Assembly: GCA_017612805.1 (NCBI GenBank)
Contig: JAGAFD010000010.1
Location: 62,001-126,000, forward strand
Origin: Bacilli bacterium
GTDB lineage: Bacteria; Bacillota_I; Bacilli_A; RF39; UBA660
DNA: 64,000 bases
Direction of reading: 5' to 3'
The notes below the pieces were generated by a model. That model saw nothing but the letters and a program-made list of their open reading frames with translations, had not been told where the DNA came from and did no database searches. Position numbers and translations under genes: made by a program. Shown here piece by piece: positions 10,299-42,769 of this stretch; position 1 is the stretch's first letter, and the number at the start of each line of letters is the position of its first letter.

Positions 10299-11172
10299 GA
10301 TATTTGCAAAGAGTAAGCTTAAATATGATTCTTATTTATTAATATGTATTTATACCTTAATTCCTTTAATAATATTTGGCTTTTATAAAAACGGCATTAA
10401 TTTATATTTTAAGGGTTTAGTATCATTAATATATATTATTAAACCACTATTATTTCCAGCTATTAGTTTAGTAGTAGGAATTGGGTATTTATTAATTTTT
10501 AAAGATAAGGATCACAATAAAGCATTAATTTATTATAATTTATTAATAAGTCTATGTATTAGTATTAATACTAATATTTGGTTATACCTTGGTTTAATAG
10601 TATTATTAGATTTAATTTATATATTATTTTTAAAGAAACTTAGTATTAACTTTGTAGCTTTAAGTATTCTTATTATTGGGTTAGTATCATACTTAATTAA
10701 AGATTATAGTTTCTATAATCATTATGAAATAATTAATAATCATTCATATGGTATTATTGATTTCTTAATTGGTCGTAGTATTGGGGGAGTAGCTACTACT
10801 AATATTATCTTGTTATTAATAAATGTATTAATCTTATCTTTTTTACCATATTATAAAAAAGATATTGCAATAATGGGTTTAATAATTTATTTTGTATGTT
10901 CGTTATGGGGTTTTGTAATTGGATATAATTTAAACGAAATTATCAATTTACTATGTTCTTATTCAGTAGTATTTGCCATTATTTATATTGCACCAATTAA
11001 TAATTATAGTCCCAAAAAAGAACGTAACCGATATTTATATATTGCCATTATTTGCGTATTAGCTTTTATCCTAGTATATTTTTTCAATAACGTATTTGCG
11101 GCTTATATTAGTATATTGGGTGTCAATATTTTAAGCATTTTACAAAAATTATTCTTAAAAAAAAGGAAATAA
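10291..11172 (+). CDS. RnfD/NqrB-like polytopic membrane protein, divergent
   Basis: A 293-residue protein with eight to ten hydrophobic segments. The stretch DFLIGRSIGGVATTNIILLL (about 158-177) resembles the RnfD region GNIPGSIGETSALALLIGG, and the position right after an RnfC-like gene supports the call. In RnfD a Thr binds FMN covalently; Thr residues occur in VATTN, but whether one is flavinylated is unknown. The last codons contain AAAAGGAAAT, which also forms the -35-like element of the promoter for the next gene. It could instead be an unrelated membrane protein; confidence is moderate. Confidence 0.55.
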   Translation: MSKIFAKSKLKYDSYLLICIYTLIPLIIFGFYKNGINLYFKGLVSLIYIIKPLLFPAISLVVGIGYLLIFKDKDHNKALIYYNLLISLCISINTNIWLYLGLIVLLDLIYILFLKKLSINFVALSILIIGLVSYLIKDYSFYNHYEIINNHSYGIIDFLIGRSIGGVATTNIILLLINVLILSFLPYYKKDIAIMGLIIYFVCSLWGFVIGYNLNEIINLLCSYSVVFAIIYIAPINNYSPKKERNRYLYIAIICVLAFILVYFFNNVFAAYISILGVNILSILQKLFLKKRK

Positions 11173-11191
11173 CGAAAAAAACGATAATATA
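11164..11191 (+). promoter_or_regulatory. Sigma-H-like promoter copy 1
   Basis: AGGAAAT (11164-11170), exactly 11 bases, then CGATAATATA (11182-11191), followed by ATAGTGAGAGCCATAAAT. Spacing is identical to copies at 12433 and 25978. The -35-like element overlaps the stop of the upstream gene. Confidence 0.6.
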
Positions 11192-11222: not shown

Positions 11223-12404
11223 ATGAAAAAAATATTATTGTTTTTTATTGCGTTAATTTGTACAACTGATGTTTGTTATGCGACCGTTAGTGCTTCTTTA
11301 TACGTTCATGCTCCGGGATATGTTTGTAATAATACCATTGCTAGTACCAAAATATGGACTAATGAATTTAGTGTTGAAAATTTAGCTAATCACAAAACTG
11401 ATTATTTTAATCGCTCATTTAGTTATGCTAATGGTTCTCTTAAAAGTGGTAGTTTTCGTATTTATGAAACTAATCCGGAAAGTCTTGGTTATTATAAAAG
11501 TATTCCATTTGATTATACTTTTGAATTAACCGAAGAATGCCCAAGCGTAAGTATTGATATTACCAAGAAGTTAGTTGAATTTAATATTGAAGTTACGATA
11601 AAAGATCATGTTACTTCAAAATTAGATATCTATGATTATGAGGGTAAAAGAATCTTTTATGAAAAAGAATATCAAGGTACTTACACGTTTACGGGAATTT
11701 ATGGTTACTATACGATTCAAACTGACTATGGAAATATTGCTGTTAGGCCTTCTTTAGATAGCGATGATAACATAATTTTTTTTGAAGATGATTATTATCG
11801 TATCAGTTATCAAAAAATAAAAATAGCTGAACCTTATCAACCAGAAGTATCTATAGCAAAAATCTGTTATAACGAGCTTCAGGAAAAGATTAGGGTTGAT
11901 GTTTCCTATATTGAAGAAGAAAAGAGTGATGATTTTGCGAATCGTATTGAGACAAATAGCGAGGATGATAATTCGCTATGCAGTAGCATTCCTATAGTAG
12001 AAGAAGCGATTGAAGAAACTATTGAAGAATCTAAAGAAGAAATCATTAATGAACCAATAATTGAAGATAATACAATAAGTGAAGAAATAGCTTTTGAAGA
12101 TAATGAGATTAAAACCGACTTAACAATAAATGAGATTACTAATGAAGATATCAAATCAATAATTTTAACGCCAATAACCTCAAAAAATACTCCAAAATCT
12201 TTGCATAAAAATCTTTTTAGTTCTATTTCGGATATTGTTGAAGAAGAATCCGAAAGTAATCTTATTATTGAGTATAATAAACCAATCAAGAATGAAAAAA
12301 TATCTTATCAAAAAGCAAGTAATACTCCTTTATTTATTATCTTATTTGTAACCATAATTCCATTATTTATTACAAAAATTGTTAAAAGAGTGCGAAAAAG
12401 TTAA
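11223..12404 (+). CDS. Secreted acidic protein with C-terminal membrane anchor, unknown function
   Basis: Not recognised. Residues 1-20 are a signal peptide (MKKILLFFIALICTTDVCYA). About 21-235 is a folded, Tyr/Asp-rich region with several Cys. About 240-300 is a low-complexity stretch dense in Glu and Ile (EEAIEETIEESKEEIINEP). Residues 370-388 are a TM helix followed by KRVRKS, a sorting-type positive tail without an LPXTG motif. It is therefore probably an extracellular domain on an acidic stalk anchored in the membrane. It stands alone between a sigma-H-like promoter and a strong terminator, so it is probably controlled with the other operons carrying that promoter. Confidence 0.7.
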   Translation: MKKILLFFIALICTTDVCYATVSASLYVHAPGYVCNNTIASTKIWTNEFSVENLANHKTDYFNRSFSYANGSLKSGSFRIYETNPESLGYYKSIPFDYTFELTEECPSVSIDITKKLVEFNIEVTIKDHVTSKLDIYDYEGKRIFYEKEYQGTYTFTGIYGYYTIQTDYGNIAVRPSLDSDDNIIFFEDDYYRISYQKIKIAEPYQPEVSIAKICYNELQEKIRVDVSYIEEEKSDDFANRIETNSEDDNSLCSSIPIVEEAIEETIEESKEEIINEPIIEDNTISEEIAFEDNEIKTDLTINEITNEDIKSIILTPITSKNTPKSLHKNLFSSISDIVEEESESNLIIEYNKPIKNEKISYQKASNTPLFIILFVTIIPLFITKIVKRVRKS

Positions 12405-12421: not shown

Positions 12422-12432
12422 CATAAAAAAAA

Positions 12433-12460
12433 AGGAAATTAACCTTTAACCGATAATATA
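12433..12460 (+). promoter_or_regulatory. Sigma-H-like promoter copy 2, before dnaG-rpoD
   Basis: AGGAAAT (12433-12439), 11 bases, CGATAATATA (12451-12460), then TATTAGTGGAGGG. In B. subtilis the homologous operon also has a sigma-H promoter (established knowledge), which supports the reading. Confidence 0.65.
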
Positions 12461-12480
12461 TATTAGTGGAGGGTAAAAAT

Positions 12481-14220
12481 ATGGCATTTATTAGCGAATC
12501 AGAGTTAAATGATATCAAAAATAGTATCAATATTGTTGAAGTTATAAATAAATATATCCCTCTAACGGAAAAGGGTAAAAATTACTTTGGCGTATGTCCT
12601 TTTCATGATGATCATTCGCCAAGCATGAGCGTTAGTAAGGATAAACAAATTTATAAATGCTTCTCATGTGGCGCATCTGGTAATGTTTTTACGTTTTTAC
12701 AAAATTATAATAATATCACTTTTCAAGAAGCCGTTATGATGGCTGCCGATTATGCTGGTATTAAAATTAATAACACGTTTAAAAAAGAACCTTCTAAATT
12801 TAGTAAGGAACATGAATTAATGAATTTAAGTAATATGTATTATGAAAATTTAATTAATTCATCATTTGGGATTTCGGCTGTTAATTATTTAAAAGAACGT
12901 GGCTTTTCTAAAGATGTTATTAAAGAGTTTAATATTGGTGTATCACCTGATACTAATGATGGTTTAATAAAATTAATCAATAGTAAAAAATTAGATTTAA
13001 ATATGGCTTTAAATATTGGTTTAATTAATAAAGGTGATTATGGTTATTATGATGTTTTTACTAAAAGAATCATGATTCCAATTAAAGATGAATTTGGTCA
13101 AACAATCGGTTATAGTGCACGTATTTATAATACTGATAGCCAAAATCGATATATGAATTCAAAAGAAAATTATTTATTCAAAAAAGGAAATATCTTATTT
13201 AATTATGATAAAGCTAAACAAGATATTAAAAAAAGTAAGGAAATAATTATCGTTGAAGGTAACTTAGATGCGATTAGATTATATGATGCTGGTATTAAAA
13301 ATGTTATTGCTCTTATGGGTACTGCTTTAACGGATTATCAAATTAATCTATTAAAAAAATTAAAATGCAAAGTTATTTTAATGCTTGATAATGATGATGC
13401 TGGGTTAAACGCTACCTATAATATTGGTAAAACATTATTTAATGAAAACTTTAATGTTGGGGTAGTAAGATTAAGTGATTATAAAGATCCGGATTTATAT
13501 TTATTAAATAACGGTATTGAAAAACTTAATAATTTAATAACTAATAATATAAATTTTATTGATTTTGAAATGTATTATTTAAAGAAAGACTTAAATTTAA
13601 ATAAAACTGAAGAATTAAGAGATTATATTAAAAAGGTTATTACCAGTTTAAAAAATAGTAATGATGAATTATTAATTGATTTAACTTTAACTAAAATCAG
13701 TGAAGATTATCATGTTGATAAAGAACTATTGAAAAACGAATTTGAAGCTATCAAGAATAAATCAAAGAATGAGGGAAAAATTGTTCAAGAACCAATCAAA
13801 TTTAATAAAACTAAATATGATAATTTAGTCATTAATATACTATATTATATGATGAATGATTATAAATATGTTAAAGGTTTTAAAAATAAACTAGGTTATA
13901 TTAAGACTAAAGTTTATCGTGATATTAGTAATGATATTATTTCATATGCGGATTTAAATAAACAAATAAATTTAAGTGATTTTATTACTTATATAAATTT
14001 AAATAATTATAATGTTGAAGAAATTAATAACATTATTAATGCTTGTAAATATGAAGAGTTTAGTGATGAATTTTTTGATAGTTGTATCAAAAATATTAAT
14101 AAAGAAACTATTAATGAAGAGATTAAAGAATTAAAAGTTAAGTTAAAAAATGAACTTGATGAGAATAAAAAAATGGAGATATTAGAAAAGATCACAGATT
14201 TAAAAAAAGGGAGTGTTTAA
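12481..14220 (+). CDS. dnaG: DNA primase
   Basis: Synthesises RNA primers for replication. The zinc-binding domain has C39-H42-C60-C63 (VCPFHDDHSP ... KCFSCGASGNVF). The TOPRIM core has IIVEGNLDAIRLYDAG (about 256) and the metal-binding LDNDDAG (about 302). A divergent C-terminal DnaB-interaction region follows. Length is 579 residues, normal for the family. The ATG at 12481 follows GGAGGG by 7 bases; an in-frame GTG further up lies inside that ribosome site and is rejected. It is followed 3 bases later by rpoD, the classical macromolecular synthesis operon pairing. Confidence 0.97.
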   Translation: MAFISESELNDIKNSINIVEVINKYIPLTEKGKNYFGVCPFHDDHSPSMSVSKDKQIYKCFSCGASGNVFTFLQNYNNITFQEAVMMAADYAGIKINNTFKKEPSKFSKEHELMNLSNMYYENLINSSFGISAVNYLKERGFSKDVIKEFNIGVSPDTNDGLIKLINSKKLDLNMALNIGLINKGDYGYYDVFTKRIMIPIKDEFGQTIGYSARIYNTDSQNRYMNSKENYLFKKGNILFNYDKAKQDIKKSKEIIIVEGNLDAIRLYDAGIKNVIALMGTALTDYQINLLKKLKCKVILMLDNDDAGLNATYNIGKTLFNENFNVGVVRLSDYKDPDLYLLNNGIEKLNNLITNNINFIDFEMYYLKKDLNLNKTEELRDYIKKVITSLKNSNDELLIDLTLTKISEDYHVDKELLKNEFEAIKNKSKNEGKIVQEPIKFNKTKYDNLVINILYYMMNDYKYVKGFKNKLGYIKTKVYRDISNDIISYADLNKQINLSDFITYINLNNYNVEEINNIINACKYEEFSDEFFDSCIKNINKETINEEIKELKVKLKNELDENKKMEILEKITDLKKGSV

Positions 14221-14223
14221 AAG

Positions 14224-15312
14224 ATGATCGAAATTAAAACATTAGAAGAAAGAAAACAAGAGTTAATTAATAAAGGTAAAGAAAAAGGTTTTGTAACTTT
14301 TGAAGAATTAGCAGAAAGCTTAAAAGGATTAGAAGTAGATACTGATTCATTAGATGAATTATATAATGATTTAGTCCAAAATAATATTGAAGTAGTTAGT
14401 GAAGAAACCGATGCTGAAGGTGGCAATATTAAAGATGATGAACCAATTATCTTAGATGACAATGAAATTACTAAAGACATTAATATTAATGATCCGGTAC
14501 GTATGTATTTAAAAGAAATTGGTCGTATTAACTTACTTTCTACAGAAGAAGAATTAGAGTTATCTAAACGTGTTGCTGATGGTGATGAAGCTGCTAAAAA
14601 TATTTTAGCTGAATCCAACTTACGTTTAGTTGTATCAATTGCTAAAAGATATGTTGGTCGTGGTCTTTTATTCCTAGACTTAATTCAAGAAGGTAATATT
14701 GGTTTAATGAAAGCTGTTGAAAAATTCGATTACGATAAAGGTTATAAATTTTCAACTTATGCAACTTGGTGGATTAGACAAGCTATTACACGTGCTTTAG
14801 CTGACCAAGCAAGAACAATTCGTGTTCCAGTTCATATGGTTGAAACTATTAATAAAATGGCGCGTATTCAACGTCAATTAACCCTTGAATTAAATCGTGA
14901 ACCATCTGAAGAAGAAATTGCTAAGAAGATGGGTATTTCGGTTGAAAAGGTTAGAGAAGTAGTTAAAATTAGTCAAGATCCAGTATCATTAGAAACACCA
15001 ATTGGTGAAGAAGATGATTCACATTTAGGTGATTTCGTAACTGATAAATCTAATTTAACTCCAGAAGAATATGCAACTAATGAAATTTTAAAAGAAGAAA
15101 TTAAGAGTGTACTATTAACATTACAAGAAAGGGAACAAGAAGTTTTAGAGTTACGTTTTGGACTTGTTGATGGAACATGCCATACACTTGAAGAAGTTGG
15201 TAAAAGATTTAATGTAACTCGTGAACGTATTAGACAAATAGAAGCTAAAGCCTTACGTAAACTTCGTCATCCATCACGTGCTAAACGTTTAAAAGATTTC
15301 TTAATAGATTAA
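14224..15312 (+). CDS. rpoD: Primary sigma factor (sigma-70/SigA)
   Basis: The housekeeping sigma factor, directing RNA polymerase to TTGACA/TATAAT promoters. An acidic region 1.1-type segment covers about 1-80, then region 1.2 ([17 protein letters not shown], about 93). Regions 2.1-2.4 include [18 protein letters not shown] and [16 protein letters not shown]. Region 3 begins HMVETINKM. Region 4.2 is [23 protein letters not shown] (about 320-342). At 362 residues it is a typical Firmicutes SigA. It is cotranscribed with dnaG and with trmK, which starts one base after its stop. A much more divergent second sigma-70 protein is encoded at 40964. Confidence 0.97.
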
Positions 15313-20331: not shown

Positions 20332-20550
20332 TTAGCAAATGCAAAGAACAAGAGGAGTAATATTAATTAATTTTAAGAAGAGAGTTTATGTTTGGTGAAA
20401 ATAAACAAAATTAATGATATGAAGGTAGCTTGGGAGCAGTTATTCTGAAATAGTAGTAAGAATAAACGTGATACGCGTTAAGTATTTAAGAAGCAATTAA
20501 AGTGGTACCACGATCTAATTCGTCTTTATGATGAATTAGATTTTTTTATT
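20332..20550 (+). promoter_or_regulatory. T-box riboswitch upstream of the HD protein and valS, likely valine-specific
   Basis: Tandem start: an extended -10 (TGGTATAAT, 20330-20337). The leader has the base helix CAAG/CTTG, a GAAGGTAGCTTG specifier-loop region with valine codon GTA at 20425-20427, the T-box core AGTGGTACCACG (20501-20512) and the terminator ATCTAATTCGTC...ATGAATTAGAT followed by T (20513-20547). Uncharged tRNA-Val should favour the antiterminator and switch on the downstream genes. The codon assignment is supported by valS being second in the operon. Confidence 0.88.
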
Positions 20551-25977: not shown

Positions 25978-26005
25978 AGGAAATCATCACTTTTTCGCTA
26001 ATATA
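25978..26005 (+). promoter_or_regulatory. Sigma-H-like promoter copy 3, before the SPOR-radC-spoIVFAB run
   Basis: AGGAAAT (25978-25984), 11 bases, CGCTAATATA (25996-26005), then ATAGTAGAGAGCTATATAT. The downstream 12-15 bases also resemble copy 1 (TAGTGAGAGCCATAAAT). Confidence 0.6.
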
Positions 26006-26072
26006 ATAGTAGAGAGCTATATATCGACAAATTACGTAGCATTGATAATTTATATTGGTAATGGTGATAAAA

Positions 26073-26498
26073 GTGAAGAAAAGATTTTTATTATATGGTA
26101 TTACAATTTGTTTAGGTATCATATTAGCATTTATTTTTTATTATAAAATAGATGATTCTCTTGCTTCAGTAATAGATAATAGATCTGTTACTGTTTTTCA
26201 ATTAGGTGTTTTTAAAAATATTGAAAATGCTAAAGAATTCATCAGCAATAATCATATTGGATATTTGTTCTATGACGGGGAGTATTATCGTGTTTATGCG
26301 GGTATTACAATTGATAATATAAAATTAAACGAAGAATATTTAGAAAGTTTAAATCTTAATTATTATGAGAAAAAGCTCAGTGTTAATAAAGAATTTTATA
26401 ATTTAGTAAAAGAATATGATTCATTAACTAAAAGTACTAATAAACTATCTTTAACTAATCAAGATTTAATTGAAAGTTATCTTGAATCAACTAATTAA
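26073..26498 (+). CDS. Membrane-anchored SPOR-domain-like protein
   Basis: About 141 residues with a short N-terminal TM anchor (FLLYGITICLGIILAFIFYY). A SPOR-like region follows, with VTVFQLGVFKNIENAKEFI and FYDGEYYRVYAGITIDN. SPOR domains bind denuded septal glycan and are found in division or sporulation proteins. The start is set at GTG 26073 with GGTGAT four bases upstream; ATG 26061 is an alternative. It overlaps radC by 29 bases. The sigma-H-like promoter and the spoIVF-type genes downstream hint at a developmental or septal role, which is inference. Confidence 0.7.
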   Translation: MKKRFLLYGITICLGIILAFIFYYKIDDSLASVIDNRSVTVFQLGVFKNIENAKEFISNNHIGYLFYDGEYYRVYAGITIDNIKLNEEYLESLNLNYYEKKLSVNKEFYNLVKEYDSLTKSTNKLSLTNQDLIESYLESTN

Positions 26499-27165
26499 AG
26501 ATATTCCAAATAGTGCCCGTCCTAAAGAAAAAGCTTATTTAAATGGTATTAATTCATTAAACGATAATGAACTATTAGCAATATTAATTAATACTGGTTA
26601 TAAAAATACTTCTGCAATTGAAATTGCTAATTTATTATTAAAAGAACATCATAGTTTATATAATATTAGTAATTTATCGATTGATACTTTGACTAAATAC
26701 AAAGGAATTAGTAAGAATAAAGCAATTACCATTTTAAGTGCTATTGCTTTAGGTACAAGAGCTATTAATAATCATCAAGAAATTATTAAAATTAAAAATG
26801 CTTCCGATATTTATAATAAATATCAAATGATATTTAAGAATAACTATCAAGAAAACTTATTAGTAATCTTTTTAAATAATCAGCAAGTTATTATTAAGGA
26901 TGAAATCATTTTTAAAGGTTCTATTAATCAAAGTTTATTTCATCCTCGGGAAATATTTAAAAAAGCGATTGATTATTTAGCCGTTAAAATCATCTTGGTT
27001 CATAATCATCCTTCTGGTGATGTAACCCCAAGTATGGAAGATGATCGATTTACTTTAAATATGATTAATAATGGTAAGATGTTAGGTATTTATGTAATTG
27101 ATCATATAATCATTGGTGATACCTTTTATAGTTATTATGATCATAAAAAAGAATGGTTTTCATAA
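26470..27165 (+). CDS. radC: RadC/JAB-domain protein
   Basis: RadC-family (UPF0758) protein, a JAMM-type fold with a helix-hairpin-helix front. The N-terminal part is IKDIPNSARPKEKA and YKGISKNKAITILSAIALG. The metal-binding motif is VHNHPSGDVTPSMEDD (about 176-191), complete. No biochemical role is settled for the family; it was once linked to repair and is competence-induced in streptococci. Start TTG 26470 lies inside the SPOR gene; TTG 26482 is possible, and neither has a good ribosome site, suggesting coupling. In B. subtilis radC is also upstream of spoIVFA/B in the mre-min region, but mreBCD and minCD are absent here. Confidence 0.9.
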   Translation: MKVILNQLIKDIPNSARPKEKAYLNGINSLNDNELLAILINTGYKNTSAIEIANLLLKEHHSLYNISNLSIDTLTKYKGISKNKAITILSAIALGTRAINNHQEIIKIKNASDIYNKYQMIFKNNYQENLLVIFLNNQQVIIKDEIIFKGSINQSLFHPREIFKKAIDYLAVKIILVHNHPSGDVTPSMEDDRFTLNMINNGKMLGIYVIDHIIIGDTFYSYYDHKKEWFS

Positions 27166-27712
27166 ACTTATATCGGTGATCAATATTAAAAAGTTTATTT
27201 CGCAAGTTCTTTTATCCATTATCTTAGTTTTAATTTCTATTATTTATATTAATAGTAGTAATACTAACAAGAATAATTATTTAAAATATTTTTTAAATAA
27301 TACTTTTAAATTTAATAAAGGTTTAAATATATATAAAAACTTAGTAGGTAATCCCATCATACTTAAAGAAGAAGGTTTAACTAGCCAAGTGATAAATGAT
27401 GCTGTTTATGAAAAAGAACCCTTTTTAGATGGATTATTATTAACGTATCAAACTGATAGCTTTGTTAAAACTTATAAAAGTGGGTTAGTAGTATTTAGTG
27501 GGATTAAAGAAAACTATGGTAATACGATTATTATTCAAGGTAATGATGGGATTGATATATGGTATGGTAATTTAGAAGATATAAGTGTTAATTTATATGA
27601 TTATGTTGAAAAAGATAAAATAATTGGTAAACCTAAAAATAATAAATTATTTATTAAAAGTGATCAAAGTGGGGAAGTAGTAGATATTAATAATTATTTA
27701 AATGAAATTTAA
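27137..27712 (+). CDS. SpoIVFA-like membrane protein with degenerate LytM (M23) domain
   Basis: About 190 residues: a TM segment (FISQVLLSIILVLISIIYIN), a linker, then an M23-like fold (SGLVVFSGIKENYGNTIIIQGNDGIDIWYGNLEDI ... VEKDKIIGK, abbreviated). The zinc ligands of active LytM peptidases are missing (for example the H of YxHL is replaced), as in SpoIVFA, which inhibits the SpoIVFB protease. The 11-base overlap with the M50 protease gene and position before rplU match B. subtilis exactly, and carry most of the weight. The start is uncertain (TTG 27113, ATG 27137 or GTG 27176), with no clear ribosome site. Confidence 0.65.
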   Translation: MIIKKNGFHKLISVINIKKFISQVLLSIILVLISIIYINSSNTNKNNYLKYFLNNTFKFNKGLNIYKNLVGNPIILKEEGLTSQVINDAVYEKEPFLDGLLLTYQTDSFVKTYKSGLVVFSGIKENYGNTIIIQGNDGIDIWYGNLEDISVNLYDYVEKDKIIGKPKNNKLFIKSDQSGEVVDINNYLNEI

Positions 27713-28427
27713 AATAAGTTATTTAATGTATCTTTTTCTAATAATAATGCTTTTATCAGGTTTATTTAAAGAAACAATAGCATTATTAATTATTATTTTT
27801 ATTCATGAATTAGGCCATATTATTGTAATAAAATTATTAAAATATCCGATTAGTTCCATAACCATCTATCCCTTCATTGGCATTATTAAAATTAACAAAA
27901 AAATAAATACTAAAATAATTCATGATGTTTTAATAAGCTTAGGTGGAATTATAAATCAACTAGGCTTTTTTATTATGCTTTATTTAATTAAAAAAAATTT
28001 ATCAATTTATTTTTATCAATTATTATTTTCTTATAATTTAAAAATGCTATTATTTAATATTATTCCTGTTTATCCTTTAGATGGCTTAAAATTAGTTAAT
28101 AGTTTATTAAATTACTTATTTAGTTATCAAAGATCTTACGTGATAAGTATTACTTTAAATATTGCTATAATTATCGTTATTTTATTAATAAAACCAAGTT
28201 ATTTTATCTATCTTTTTAGTACTTATAGTATTATCTATTTATTTAAATATTATCAGTTTAATCTTAAAGTATTTTATTTAGAACGCTTATATTTTGATTA
28301 TTATTACAAGAAAATTAAATATTTAAAAAAACCTAATAAGAATTGCATTAAAAGAGAATACAAATATTTTTATCAAAAAGGATGTCTAATTTATGACGAA
28401 TCCTACATAATTACTAAAAAAGATTGA
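27702..28427 (+). CDS. SpoIVFB-like intramembrane M50 metalloprotease
   Basis: Site-2-type protease in the membrane. Zinc motif HELGH at 35-39 in a TM helix and the third ligand in NIIPVYPLDGLKLVN (Asp about 126). Six or so TM segments fill the first 185 residues, followed by a basic tail. In Bacillus SpoIVFB cleaves pro-sigma-K; here the substrate is unknown and no SigK is seen. It pairs with the SpoIVFA-like regulator just upstream and precedes rplU, as in spore formers. Not proof of sporulation: such genes persist in non-sporulating relatives. Confidence 0.85.
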   Translation: MKFKISYLMYLFLIIMLLSGLFKETIALLIIIFIHELGHIIVIKLLKYPISSITIYPFIGIIKINKKINTKIIHDVLISLGGIINQLGFFIMLYLIKKNLSIYFYQLLFSYNLKMLLFNIIPVYPLDGLKLVNSLLNYLFSYQRSYVISITLNIAIIIVILLIKPSYFIYLFSTYSIIYLFKYYQFNLKVFYLERLYFDYYYKKIKYLKKPNKNCIKREYKYFYQKGCLIYDESYIITKKD

Positions 28428-28439
28428 CTTTTATGCTTA

Positions 28440-28550
28440 TTTTTGATAGTATTTTACTTGGTGAGTTTCACCCGAAAAAACCGCTCTAAAAAGGTTTTGA
28501 AAATCTAATTTAATTAGTACCTTAAAGGCGCGTCTTAAAAATTATTTATA
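28440..28550 (+). promoter_or_regulatory. Candidate L21 (rplU) leader
   Basis: The 129-base gap before rplU holds a perfect hairpin GGTGA-GTT-TCACC (28459-28471), a possible AAGGT...ACCTT pairing and a GGCGCG element at 28526-28531. L21 leaders that bind ribosomal protein are known in Firmicutes at this position. I did not verify the consensus, so the call rests on position and pairing. Confidence 0.4.
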
Positions 28551-37600: not shown

Positions 37601-40600
37601 ATGAAAAGAAAAAATCGTAAAGGATTTACCTTAGTTGAATTACTAGCAACCGTTGTTATAATGGGGATTGTTGTATTAATTGCAATTCCTGCTTATTCAG
37701 CTATTTCCAATTCTTTAAAGAAACGTCAAAATAAAAATATTTTTAGTTATATTGAAACGCAAGCTTCAAAATATGCTTCGGAAAATAACCTTTATAGCGA
37801 TATTGATCAAACAACCATCACGGTTCAAACACTATTACAATCTGGTTATGTTGAAGCTGATAATAAGGCCGGAACTAAGGTTATTGATGCCTTTGGTAAG
37901 GATATAACTTGTTATCAAGTAAGAATAGATTTTGAAAATGGTAAACCCGTACCTAAATTTATTGAAGAAGAGGTTTCTAATCAAGATGGTATTTGTATCT
38001 TAGATGATTTAAAAGTTAAAAAGCTAATTCAATTAGATGCATATAAAGCTTCTAGTTTAAGTGAATCAGCTAAAATTACGGTTGAAAATAATCGTACATA
38101 TTGGGTAAAAGAAGATGTTATTTTAAAACTTAAAATTCTTGATGCTAACCTAAATGCCCGTCGTAATGAACAAATCACTAATATTGATTGGAATGCAGTT
38201 AATGAAAATAAGTCATATTCTAATAAGGATGCTAATTGGACAACCGTTGGTTGGTTAGATAACATCACTTTATATAATCAAGCTACCGAATATAAAAATG
38301 TTTATCGTGTATCAACATCAACTATTATGAATGATACCAAGTTTAAAATATCATTAACGGTTAATTATATTGATGATGCTGGTAAGAAAATTAATGAAAC
38401 TTTGACTACATACCTTGTAGTAAGAATTGATAAAGAATTACCAACGGTTACCGCTAGTGTAGATACCAATTGGACTAAAACCAATAAAAAAATATATGTA
38501 ACTGGTAATGATAAACAAGGATCAGGAATTGATTATTTTTGTATCTACGATAGTGAAGTAACTAATTACCAATGTAGTAAAACTAGTGCTAATGCTATTC
38601 AATTAAAGGCTAAAAGTACCAATAAAGGCGAGGTTGCAAAACCAGCAGGTACATATTACATTTGGGCTGTTGATAAAGTAGGTAACTGGTCACTTAATCC
38701 AGCTCGTGTAGTTGTTGGAAATATTGATACTACCGGACCAAATTGTGTATATGAAAATCAAAATACTAATTGGAAAACTGGTGCTCATACCATAACTGTT
38801 AAATGTGATGATGGCAATGATGGATCAGGATGCATAACTAAGCCATATATAGTAACTTATGCTGATGATAGCAAAACCTATAGTAGAGTTAATCTTTTAA
38901 CAAGCTATATCATTACCGATTATGCTGGTAACAAAACAACATGTACTGGTCCAGTAAATGTTTATATAGATAATAAAGCGCCAACATTAAGCGTTACCCA
39001 TGATAAGAAAAGAACGGCAACAATTACTGCTCACGATGATGCTGAGTTAAAAAAATATGAAATTTATAATGGCTCAACATTATTGAAATCAGAAAATATC
39101 TCTGGTAATGACTTGTCTATAACTTATGATCAAAATATTGCTGGTACTTATACCGTAAAAGTATATGATGTAACTGATCATGTGGTAAGTAAACAATTTA
39201 AAGTATCAAGTTATACCGTAACTTGTGAAGATTACTTTGTTGATGCATCAAATAACAATCAAGTTAAATTAGGAAGCAGCACTAAAAAATATAATTATGG
39301 TGAGACTGCATCAGGTACTGATTGGGGAACAGATAGTGCAAAAGGTACTTATTATACGAACTATGTATATAAATCTTCAACTTCATCTACGGTTCCAGAT
39401 AACAACAATCTTGTAGTATATCGTCGTTTCTATGCATGGACGGACTTAAATATTTATTATGCTGATGGAACAACGCAACAAGGAGCAACGGTATCATTTA
39501 AAGTAGGAAATGGATCATGGAAAGATGTTAAAAATGAGGATAATACTATACAACCTTATGGAACTACTTATTATATAAAAAATATTCGCCCTGTTAATGC
39601 CTACGAAGAAATAGATAAAGTTGAAAAATTAACGTATGATTCTGCCAATGGATATTACTATTTCAAACCAACATCGGCTGGAAATGTCATGAAAATATTC
39701 TTAAAATATAAGAAGTTTAGTTTTGATTTAAATGGCAATTTAGATGGAACAACAATGGGTAATATTGCTGGATATGGAACTGCTGATGTTTATATTAACG
39801 GTACCCAAGTTGGCGAAAATATTACTGATTATTATGAATCATGGCCATATGGTACAACCTATGAAATTAAAGATATCAGAGCCAATACCGGAAGAGTATA
39901 TGACGGTGTTACTAGCGGTTCTATATCTGGTACCATTGGTAATGGTAATGTTAGCACATCATTAAAATTCACCACAAAAACTGCTAAGGTTATTTTCCAT
40001 CGTAATATTAATAGTTCAGATACAACTACTAAAACCCAAACGTTTAAATATGGTGATAGTAATTTAAGTTTTGCTAATACTGGTTTTGCTAAAACTGGCT
40101 ATGCATTATTAGGATGGAGTCAAAACTCTGGAGCTACTAGTGCAACTTATAGCGTTAATAATGGCGTAAACAATAACTGGATTATTGGCGTATATGACGG
40201 AAGTTACAGTAATAGCAATCATGAAATTCATCTATATGCCGTATGGAAACAAAATTTACCGTCATCGCAAACTGTGTTTAGTGGTGGTAAGATACATTAT
40301 AAAGATTGGGATGGCACCATTAAATATGATGATTCAGGATTTAATCATATAAATAGTGGATGTACTCCTGGAAATATAACAAATAGTAACTTCGTAGATA
40401 CATCTTATTATGAAGAAGATAATAATGGTACTAAAGTTAAAATTCGTGGCAAGATGCAAGTTGGTGCTTGGTATGGACAAGCTCAAGATAATAGTTCAAC
40501 ACAAACCATAACAATTAAATGGAACGGTTATAAAAAGGCGGCTGTAACAATTAGTGGTACATACAACCGAGGTGCATGTAATCATAATGCATGGTTATGG

Positions 40601-40870
40601 GTTGATGCTAAAGAATATCATAATCAAACTCATGAGGAAGGTTGTTGGGAAGAAAACGGAACTAGAAAATGTAGTTGTGTACCTACCAATAGTGATGGTA
40701 TTACATATCCAAAACACACGGTATTTTATTACACTTCATCAACTGGCCAAGGAACTACTACGATAACATTAAAAGGTCGAGCTACTAAACCGGCATCTAC
40801 ATCCGATAATAATTCATGGGTTTATGGATGTTTAGTTGTTGAATCAATTGTAATGTCTGATCCTGTATAA
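37601..40870 (+). CDS. Giant class III prepilin with adhesin-like ectodomain
   Basis: 1089 residues. The start is a textbook type IV prepilin leader: MKRKNRKG then FTLVELLATVVIMGIVVLIA, with cleavage expected after Gly8 and Glu5 of the mature form present. A pilin-like alpha1/head segment runs to about 120. Then come Ig-like units (GTYYIWAVDKVGNWS; YIDNKAPTLSV), two copies of a YGTTYxIKxIR module (about 653 and 749), an InlB/Listeria-Bacteroides type repeat (about 796-882, ending LYAVWKQ) and a Cys-rich end. Ordinary pilins are 130-180 residues, so this is either a tip adhesin or a very large minor pilin. It has its own ribosome site (AGGAAAGTGATC) downstream of the Tad genes and ends in a terminator. 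Confidence 0.88.
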   Translation: MKRKNRKGFTLVELLATVVIMGIVVLIAIPAYSAISNSLKKRQNKNIFSYIETQASKYASENNLYSDIDQTTITVQTLLQSGYVEADNKAGTKVIDAFGKDITCYQVRIDFENGKPVPKFIEEEVSNQDGICILDDLKVKKLIQLDAYKASSLSESAKITVENNRTYWVKEDVILKLKILDANLNARRNEQITNIDWNAVNENKSYSNKDANWTTVGWLDNITLYNQATEYKNVYRVSTSTIMNDTKFKISLTVNYIDDAGKKINETLTTYLVVRIDKELPTVTASVDTNWTKTNKKIYVTGNDKQGSGIDYFCIYDSEVTNYQCSKTSANAIQLKAKSTNKGEVAKPAGTYYIWAVDKVGNWSLNPARVVVGNIDTTGPNCVYENQNTNWKTGAHTITVKCDDGNDGSGCITKPYIVTYADDSKTYSRVNLLTSYIITDYAGNKTTCTGPVNVYIDNKAPTLSVTHDKKRTATITAHDDAELKKYEIYNGSTLLKSENISGNDLSITYDQNIAGTYTVKVYDVTDHVVSKQFKVSSYTVTCEDYFVDASNNNQVKLGSSTKKYNYGETASGTDWGTDSAKGTYYTNYVYKSSTSSTVPDNNNLVVYRRFYAWTDLNIYYADGTTQQGATVSFKVGNGSWKDVKNEDNTIQPYGTTYYIKNIRPVNAYEEIDKVEKLTYDSANGYYYFKPTSAGNVMKIFLKYKKFSFDLNGNLDGTTMGNIAGYGTADVYINGTQVGENITDYYESWPYGTTYEIKDIRANTGRVYDGVTSGSISGTIGNGNVSTSLKFTTKTAKVIFHRNINSSDTTTKTQTFKYGDSNLSFANTGFAKTGYALLGWSQNSGATSATYSVNNGVNNNWIIGVYDGSYSNSNHEIHLYAVWKQNLPSSQTVFSGGKIHYKDWDGTIKYDDSGFNHINSGCTPGNITNSNFVDTSYYEEDNNGTKVKIRGKMQVGAWYGQAQDNSSTQTITIKWNGYKKAAVTISGTYNRGACNHNAWLWVDAKEYHNQTHEEGCWEENGTRKCSCVPTNSDGITYPKHTVFYYTSSTGQGTTTITLKGRATKPASTSDNNSWVYGCLVVESIVMSDPV

Positions 40871-40933: not shown

Positions 40934-40963
40934 AAAAAAGACTAAAAAAAGGGGTGAGATTTG

Positions 40964-42769
40964 ATGAAATCACTTGAGTTGAATGATAGTATAAAAAAGA
41001 GTAAACTTAAAAAAGCTAAAGATAATTATGCAGCATATGTTTTAAGTTTATTTGATTATTATTTTGATAAATATAAAATCCCTGAAAACGAAGATTTTAA
41101 TGAATATTTTAAGAATTTTTTAAATTATTTAAATACTAATTGTATCGATCTAGCAAGCGTATTTAGTATTATTAAAGATAGTATGTACGAAAATGAAAAT
41201 TTCAACGAAACCATTCACAATGTTGATTTAAATAATTATATTAAAACTAATCCAATCGTATCATTAATCATTGATGATCAGTTTGAAAAAAACATTGAGG
41301 AAGATAAGAAAGAAGAAGTTATTAATGATGCGATTGATGAAGAAATTGATGACTTAGATAAAGATTATACGTCTAAAGAATTTGATTATTCAAAAGTTGA
41401 AAAAGAAATTGAAGAAGAAGAAGCTAAATTATTAGCAGAACCAAACGAAACAGATGCTGCTGAAGAAATTTCTGGTTATGCTGTTAAAATAAAAACTAAA
41501 TTAGATGATGGTGAAAATGAAAGATTGGCTTTAAAAGTCCAACAATATTTTGCCGCTATATCTTATTATGAAGGTATAATATACTATTCTTATTTCCAAA
41601 ATCATTTAGATGTTCTTGAAAAGATGTATCAAGATCATTTTGAAAGCACTGATAAGAAAAATGGAGTAAATTCTAAATTATTTTTAAAGGTAATTAATTA
41701 CTATAAACAAAATAATTATGATTATAATGGTCATATTGCTCAGGATATTTTAAAAATAAGAAAAAATAATGCTATGGTATGGATGCGTTATATTGGTGAT
41801 AATATTAATCCTGAAGATTATTTAAGCGAATATCAATTAAAAGCATATAATCTTTCTAAACGATTATATGATGAAAACATGTCCACATTAATTGAACATA
41901 ATCTTGGTTTAATAAAAAAAGTTGCCAGCAATTACGAAGAAAAATTAAGACAAAAAGAGCATAATAATGTTTTCAATATTGAAGACTTTCAAACTGCTGG
42001 GATTGAAGGCTTAATGAAAGCAATCTTAAAAATTGATCCTAAAATAGCCAAATTAAGTACTTATTCATATTGGTGGATTAAACAATCAATCGAGCGATTC
42101 TATGAGGAAAATTCCAAGGCCATTCGTGTTTCTGTTCATATGTTAGAACGAATAAAAATGTATGAAAGAACTCTAAGTCGCTTAAAAATAATGTTAGGTC
42201 ATGAACCAACTGATGAAGAAATAATGAATGAAATGGGCATTAACGATACAATGCTTAAAGATATTCGCGCTGCGCAACATAAAATGGTTTCATTTGATGA
42301 ACCAATTTCTGATGAAAGAGATGCTACTACCTTAGGTGAAATGATTAGTGACGATCGAAAAGAAACTGAAGAAATAGCGTTAGATCAAAATACATTATCA
42401 ATGTTAATGGATCTATTAGATGAAACTTTTGACGATAACAATCCTAATTCAAAAAGAGAAAAAGAAGTTGTTTTATATCGCTGCGGTTTTTATAATAACC
42501 GCACTTATACATTAGAAGAATTAGGTAAAATTTATGGTGTAACTCGAGAACGTATTCGTCAAATTGAAGCTAAAGCATTTCGTCGTTTAAGAAATAAAGT
42601 TCATTATAATACGAATAAATATATAAGAAAAACAAATGATAAAAATGTATTAAAAGCGGATTACGAAGAAAGATTTGCTTTAACTTGTAATTCTAATTAT
42701 GTTCCAAAATTAAATACTCTTACTAAACCTAAAACCCGTGAAGAGTTATTAAAAGAATTAAAAAAATAA
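40964..42769 (+). CDS. Divergent sigma-70-family factor with long N-terminal extension
   Basis: 601 residues. The first ~300 do not match any sigma region I know: helical, with a strongly acidic stretch (EEIDDLDKDYTSKE; EKEIEEEEAKLLAEP). From about 310 it has sigma region 2 (LIEHNLGLIKKVASNYEEKL, FQTAGIEGLMKAILKIDP, LSTYSYWWIKQSIERFY), region 3 (HMLERIKMYERTLSRLK) and region 4.2 ([28 protein letters not shown], about 515-541). Region 4.2 is nearly that of RpoD, so it may read a similar -35. A ~55-residue tail follows. ATG 40964 has GGGGTGAG upstream. Situated right after the giant prepilin, behind its own promoter. Confidence 0.85.
   Translation: MKSLELNDSIKKSKLKKAKDNYAAYVLSLFDYYFDKYKIPENEDFNEYFKNFLNYLNTNCIDLASVFSIIKDSMYENENFNETIHNVDLNNYIKTNPIVSLIIDDQFEKNIEEDKKEEVINDAIDEEIDDLDKDYTSKEFDYSKVEKEIEEEEAKLLAEPNETDAAEEISGYAVKIKTKLDDGENERLALKVQQYFAAISYYEGIIYYSYFQNHLDVLEKMYQDHFESTDKKNGVNSKLFLKVINYYKQNNYDYNGHIAQDILKIRKNNAMVWMRYIGDNINPEDYLSEYQLKAYNLSKRLYDENMSTLIEHNLGLIKKVASNYEEKLRQKEHNNVFNIEDFQTAGIEGLMKAILKIDPKIAKLSTYSYWWIKQSIERFYEENSKAIRVSVHMLERIKMYERTLSRLKIMLGHEPTDEEIMNEMGINDTMLKDIRAAQHKMVSFDEPISDERDATTLGEMISDDRKETEEIALDQNTLSMLMDLLDETFDDNNPNSKREKEVVLYRCGFYNNRTYTLEELGKIYGVTRERIRQIEAKAFRRLRNKVHYNTNKYIRKTNDKNVLKADYEERFALTCNSNYVPKLNTLTKPKTREELLKELKK

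Follow-up and report, generated by a model that had tools for sequence, protein, structure and literature searches.

A sequence pattern that recurs in the window (the whole stretch of 64,000 nucleotides that was analysed), AGGAAAT-N11-CGMTAATATA, is best explained as the promoter shared by the genes of a SigH regulon (sigma-H/ComX type), a reading to which we assign a probability of roughly 0.86 on the basis of sequence comparisons. The gene set, very probably controlled by the alternative sigma factor SigH in this uncultured Bacilli genome, joins the genes for primase and the main sigma factor to genes for DNA uptake and DNA processing.

Putative promoter sites in the window and in the genome

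In order to verify the pattern, the three copies proposed in the initial annotation, at 11164, 12433 and 25978, were inspected, and all of them proved to be exact matches with a spacer of 11 bases and A-rich flanking sequence. The putative sigma-H-type promoter of dnaG-rpoD (12433..12460, + strand) has the -35 element AAAGGAAAT at 12431-12439, followed by N11 and the -10 element CGATAAT at 12451-12457. A GGAGGG ribosome-binding site is located at 12468..12473 (+ strand), and the ATG at 12481 is, from the sequence, a more likely start of dnaG than the GTG at 12466. The dnaG gene (DNA primase, 12481..14220, + strand) encodes a CHC2-type zinc-finger motif and is followed by rpoD (primary sigma factor sigma-A, 14224..15312, + strand), whose product gave a Sigma70_r2 match. 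The second site (11164..11191, + strand) precedes an open reading frame for a 393-aa secreted or membrane-anchored protein (11223..12404, + strand), for which a Pfam search gave no match and the family is unassigned. The AGGAAATAA sequence at this site also includes the stop codon of the preceding Rnf-like gene, and the site is kept in a genome of the same genus, G001 (L084:4759). The third site (25978..26005, + strand), with orthologous copies in G001, G013 and G025, precedes a four-gene operon on the + strand. The operon encodes a 147-aa membrane protein (26055..26498), RadC (26470..27165; PF04002 and PF20582), an M23 peptidase-like protein (27113..27712; PF01551) and an M50 peptidase (27702..28427; PF02163). 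The names SpoIVFA-like, suggested by gene order, and SpoIVFB-like are putative for the last two products. The 147-aa protein resembles a SPOR protein by eye only, and a Pfam search gave no match.

The sites were compared with the sigma-H consensus published for Listeria, RMAGGRWWW-N11-12-RRMGAAW (PMC4754846). The -35 element AAAGGAAAT agrees with it at 9 of 9 positions, and the spacer is 11 in all sites of this genome and 12 before comEA in G001. The -10 element CGMTAAT agrees at 5 of 7 positions, the key G being replaced by T and AAT being kept. Among relatives, GTAT is found in many and GAAT in a few, where this genome has TAAT; the -10 element has drifted from the GAAT of the sigma-H consensus. 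Forms with GAAT include the comEA promoter of G026, AAAGGAAAT-N11-GTCGAAT (also given as AAAAAAAGGAAAT-N11-GTCGAAT), and the dnaG promoter of G016, with GTAGAAT and N12.

The pattern gave no match in 100 dinucleotide-preserving shuffles of the window, and a search allowing gaps of 10-12 bases found no further copy there. Additionally, a matrix built from other genomes only scored the three window sites at 47.3, 34.0 and 27.0, the next best window position at -1.1, and the maximum over twenty random 64-kb sequences at 11.1. The genome's own assembly (G000, about 1.05 Mb) was covered by pattern searches and by the inspection of selected stretches. The genome-wide count proposed with the initial annotation revealed a clear excess upstream of genes, with six exact copies against about 0.002 expected in 1.048 Mb under an order-1 Markov model. 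A seventh site, with two mismatches, was also identified; beyond these, only matches with three mismatches were found, at the level of a reversed-pattern control.

All seven sites lie just upstream of genes and on the sense strand. The earlier set of three operons was incomplete: four sites outside the window had been missed, including one at C8:40141 (exact) before comEA-comEC and then a YhcG/DUF1016 nuclease gene. The others precede an ABC transporter (C8:26048, exact), a gene for an MvaI/BcnI-family restriction enzyme (C3:4790, - strand, exact) and a peptidase-C39 peptide exporter (C3:51691, the site with two mismatches), in addition to the window sites at C10:74433 (dnaG-rpoD), C10:73164 (393-aa protein) and C10:87978 (radC operon). 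Two RNA leaders were also observed in the window: HD-domain/aminoacyl-tRNA synthetase genes follow a T-box leader (20335-20530), and an L21-type ribosomal protein gene follows an L21 leader (28469-28545).

The predicted sigma factor and other candidate readers

A gene for a SigH-like sigma factor, of the kind sought since the initial annotation, was found in nearly all genomes of the family but not in this genome's own assembly. A profile built from the proteins of four relatives detected a SigH-like sigma factor in 374 of 386 genomes of the same family. In the pattern-bearing genomes G001, G012, G013 and G025, a sigma factor of roughly 200 aa is encoded directly after rlmB, and in G001 the full order is mrnC-rlmB-sigH-nusG, with the sigma gene directly before nusG. 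The rlmB-sigH-nusG position is also the place of sigH in B. subtilis. In S. aureus, sigH likewise adjoins nusG (PMC3486894). The best NCBIfam models for the four proteins were those of SigH (TIGR02859/PRK08295), matched over nearly the full length; as the scores of 95-118 bits are under the curated cut-offs of 208-295, we call the protein SigH-like. In the G000 assembly, sigma and SigH-profile searches revealed RpoD, SigE, SigF, SigG, SigK and a 602-aa RpoD-like protein, and no SigH. Neither nusG nor a close rlmB was found in this assembly, and the whole rlmB-sigH-nusG region is probably missing through an assembly gap, which is the simplest reading given that nusG is close to universal.

Other sigma factors were considered as readers of the pattern. 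In G001, no sigma factor besides RpoD, the sporulation sigma factors and the SigH-like protein scored over the cut-off, and this includes ECF sigma factors. SigF, SigG, SigE and SigK are present, but their known promoters are unlike the AGGAAAT-N11 pattern.

The strongest competing explanation, which we nevertheless consider improbable, is that sigma-A reads a TATAAT-like -10 element further downstream, with an activator on AGGAAAT replacing the -35 element. Indeed, TATAATAG follows the block in six of the seven sites of this genome, 17 bases from GGAAAT, the dnaG site having TATATA. However, this downstream hexamer varies across genera (TATATA, TATTAA, TATTAT, AAATAA and others), whereas GTAT or TAAT occupies the SigH -10 position in 18 of 21 sites. 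Moreover, the information drops past the first block, there is no candidate activator, and the -35 element equals the sigma-H consensus.

It is far less probable that the pattern is read by the 602-aa RpoD-like protein (window 40961-42769), an additional sigma factor of this genome. The absence of a full-length counterpart from the pattern-bearing genomes G001, G012 and G025 largely refutes this idea, and region 4.2 of the protein retains the RpoD residues that would be expected to bind a TTGACA-type -35 element. This protein has about 300 N-terminal residues of unassigned nature and a C-terminal half similar to MzaA of the MZA anti-phage system; other large RpoD-like proteins of this kind occur sporadically across the family. 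We give equally little credit to the view that the sites are operators rather than promoters, bound by a repressor or some other DNA-binding protein: strong conservation would suit it, but the sites have a fixed orientation, a short distance to genes, promoter-like spacing and a match to the sigma-H consensus, and are not palindromic. Chance similarity, conceivable in an AT-rich genome, is refuted by the observed and expected counts (6 against 0.002) and by the orthologous positions kept in other genera.

Conservation of the predicted targets across the family

The initial reading of a SigH-type promoter was supported, since the -35 element and the spacer fit the published consensus, a SigH-like sigma factor is near-universal in the family, and dnaG-rpoD and comEA-comEC are SigH targets in Listeria. 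To define how widely the targets are shared, the DNA upstream of dnaG was inspected in distant members of the class and in 29 additional genomes of the family, the presence of a site being judged by eye. An A-tract-AGGAWWT sequence with an AT-rich -10 element at the same distance was observed before dnaG in 20 of the 29; together with G000/G001, G012, G013 and G025, about 24 of the 33 genera examined have this promoter type, with TAAT, GTAT or (with N12) GAAT in the -10 element. No site was found upstream of dnaG in the distant class members. The 20 genera with the promoter have a SigH that resembles A1, and in the eight genera without it (G005, G009, G010, G014, G015, G018, G024 and G028) SigH is more distant. 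The exception is G034, where the dnaG site is absent and SigH is without an otherwise conserved arginine of region 2.4. Shared ancestry confounds the association between dnaG promoter and SigH type (Fisher p = 2e-6, Mann-Whitney p = 9e-5), and the independent lineages were too few for a claim that region 2.4 and the -10 element have co-evolved. In G014, a long frame had suggested that dnaG and rpoD are fused, but a stop separates the genes and the fusion was rejected.

A matrix trained on the dnaG sites alone detected sites before comEA in G002, G008, G016, G025, G026 and G027 (p <= 0.015), with the best match in G026. At radC, the same matrix detected a site only in G025 among the loci tested, and the radC-SpoIVF site is confined to the closely related G000, G001, G013 and G025. 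The proposal of an ancient control fits dnaG-rpoD and comEA but not radC, a clade-specific target that found no support outside the close clade as a family-wide one; radC-SpoIVF and several PD-(D/E)XK nucleases are lineage-specific additions. AGGAAAW-N11-AGCGTATTTT-like sites (L216, L330 and L342) were also seen before comEA in G046 (p = 0.005), and a weaker comEA site in G057, which belongs to another family of the class.

When 84,980 species genomes were searched for the local variant of the pattern, 39 stretches were returned, nearly all from MAGs of uncultured Bacilli from rumen, rabbit and other gut samples; records from Bacteroidales, Bacteroides and Thermoguttaceae were discarded as chance matches. 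The recurrent downstream genes were dnaG-rpoD (10) and C39 exporters (4), along with genes for YhcG/DUF1016 nucleases, PDDEXK_2 (Rpn-type) nucleases and Bro-N/DinD-like proteins, while a UvrD helicase and an M23 peptidase were single cases. Sites of relatives were further found before ruvAB and genes for SpaA-type surface proteins. Genes for PDDEXK_2 (Rpn-type) nucleases each lie behind their own promoter copy (L251, L257, L267, L285, L093 and L099), and up to eight copies occur in one MAG, Lapin-027 bin20.

Proposed regulation and comparison with known systems

We propose that SigH, whose gene probably lies at the rlmB-sigH-nusG locus missing from this assembly, would direct RNA polymerase to AAAGGAAAT-N11-CGMTAAT and could jointly turn on dnaG-rpoD, comEA-comEC, the C39 peptide exporter, the restriction enzyme, radC-SpoIVF and surface proteins. 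Given that rpoD is among the targets, the response would also raise sigma-A, and competition of sigma-A for core polymerase might contribute to ending the response.

A role in uptake and DNA processing, though not natural transformation, is supported, with comEA-comEC behind such a site here (C8:40141), in G025, in G001 and in others. The term competence should be used with care, because DprA (PF02481) was not found in G000, G001, G013 and G025 (11 of 14 control genomes gave a match) and no promoter was found before the pilus-type (comG-type) genes within the window. DprA went undetected although comEA-comEC and, in the window, pilus-type genes are present; the window also encodes a very large pilin-like protein of 1089 aa with a prepilin N-methylation motif (37601-40870), adjoining a T2SSF gene. 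A bolder idea, which we consider rather doubtful, is that SigH-driven dnaG-rpoD is both the most conserved output and a built-in timer, with sigma-A displacing SigH, and that, in the absence of DprA, ComEA/ComEC together with the co-induced PD-(D/E)XK nucleases and restriction enzyme would produce a state of DNA uptake and destruction (for feeding or defence) and not classical transformation.

These results provide a testable SigH regulon for an uncultured gut lineage of Bacilli and extend the link from SigH to dnaG-rpoD, known from Bacillus and Listeria, to numerous genera in a distant family. ComK drives the late competence genes of B. subtilis, whereas here comEA lies behind a SigH-type promoter; the neighbourhood of the sigH gene is the same. 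The ComX targets of Streptococcus include comEA and comEC, and the present regulon resembles that of ComX in its related sigma factor and in these targets. A further likeness is radC, a target of the late competence regulon of ComX/SigX (PMC6560143, PMC6066662). In pneumococcus, competence brings an approximately tenfold increase in rpoD, which was proposed to shut competence down, but the gene lacks a recognisable ComX site and the increase is unexplained (PMC6560143); here, in contrast, rpoD has a direct SigH-type site, a plain conserved promoter that makes the idea of sigma competition directly testable. Another difference is that DprA, a core ComX target, was not detected in the four genomes named above.

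According to Qi and Doi (1990, as cited in PMC2824700), SigH promoters in the sigA operon of B. subtilis feed dnaG (dnaE) and sigA, as would be the case here for the primase and sigma-A genes. Overexpression of SigH induces com genes in Lactobacillus sakei and Staphylococcus aureus, and the excerpts of these reports do not stress dnaG-rpoD as an output (PMC3364868, PMC3486894). The closest likeness is to SigH of Listeria monocytogenes, which by RNA-seq drives LMRG_00908-dnaG-rpoD and comEA-comEB-comEC (PMC4754846), the same two core operons. Listeria differs in its -10 consensus (RRMGAAW, against CGMTAAT here) and in having a comG target, whereas no site precedes the pilus-type genes in the window; the restriction enzyme, the C39 exporter and other nucleases are additional here. 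Because Listeria SigH drives both core operons, this wiring is already known and probably ancient, and the present regulon is a well-supported case of it in a new lineage.
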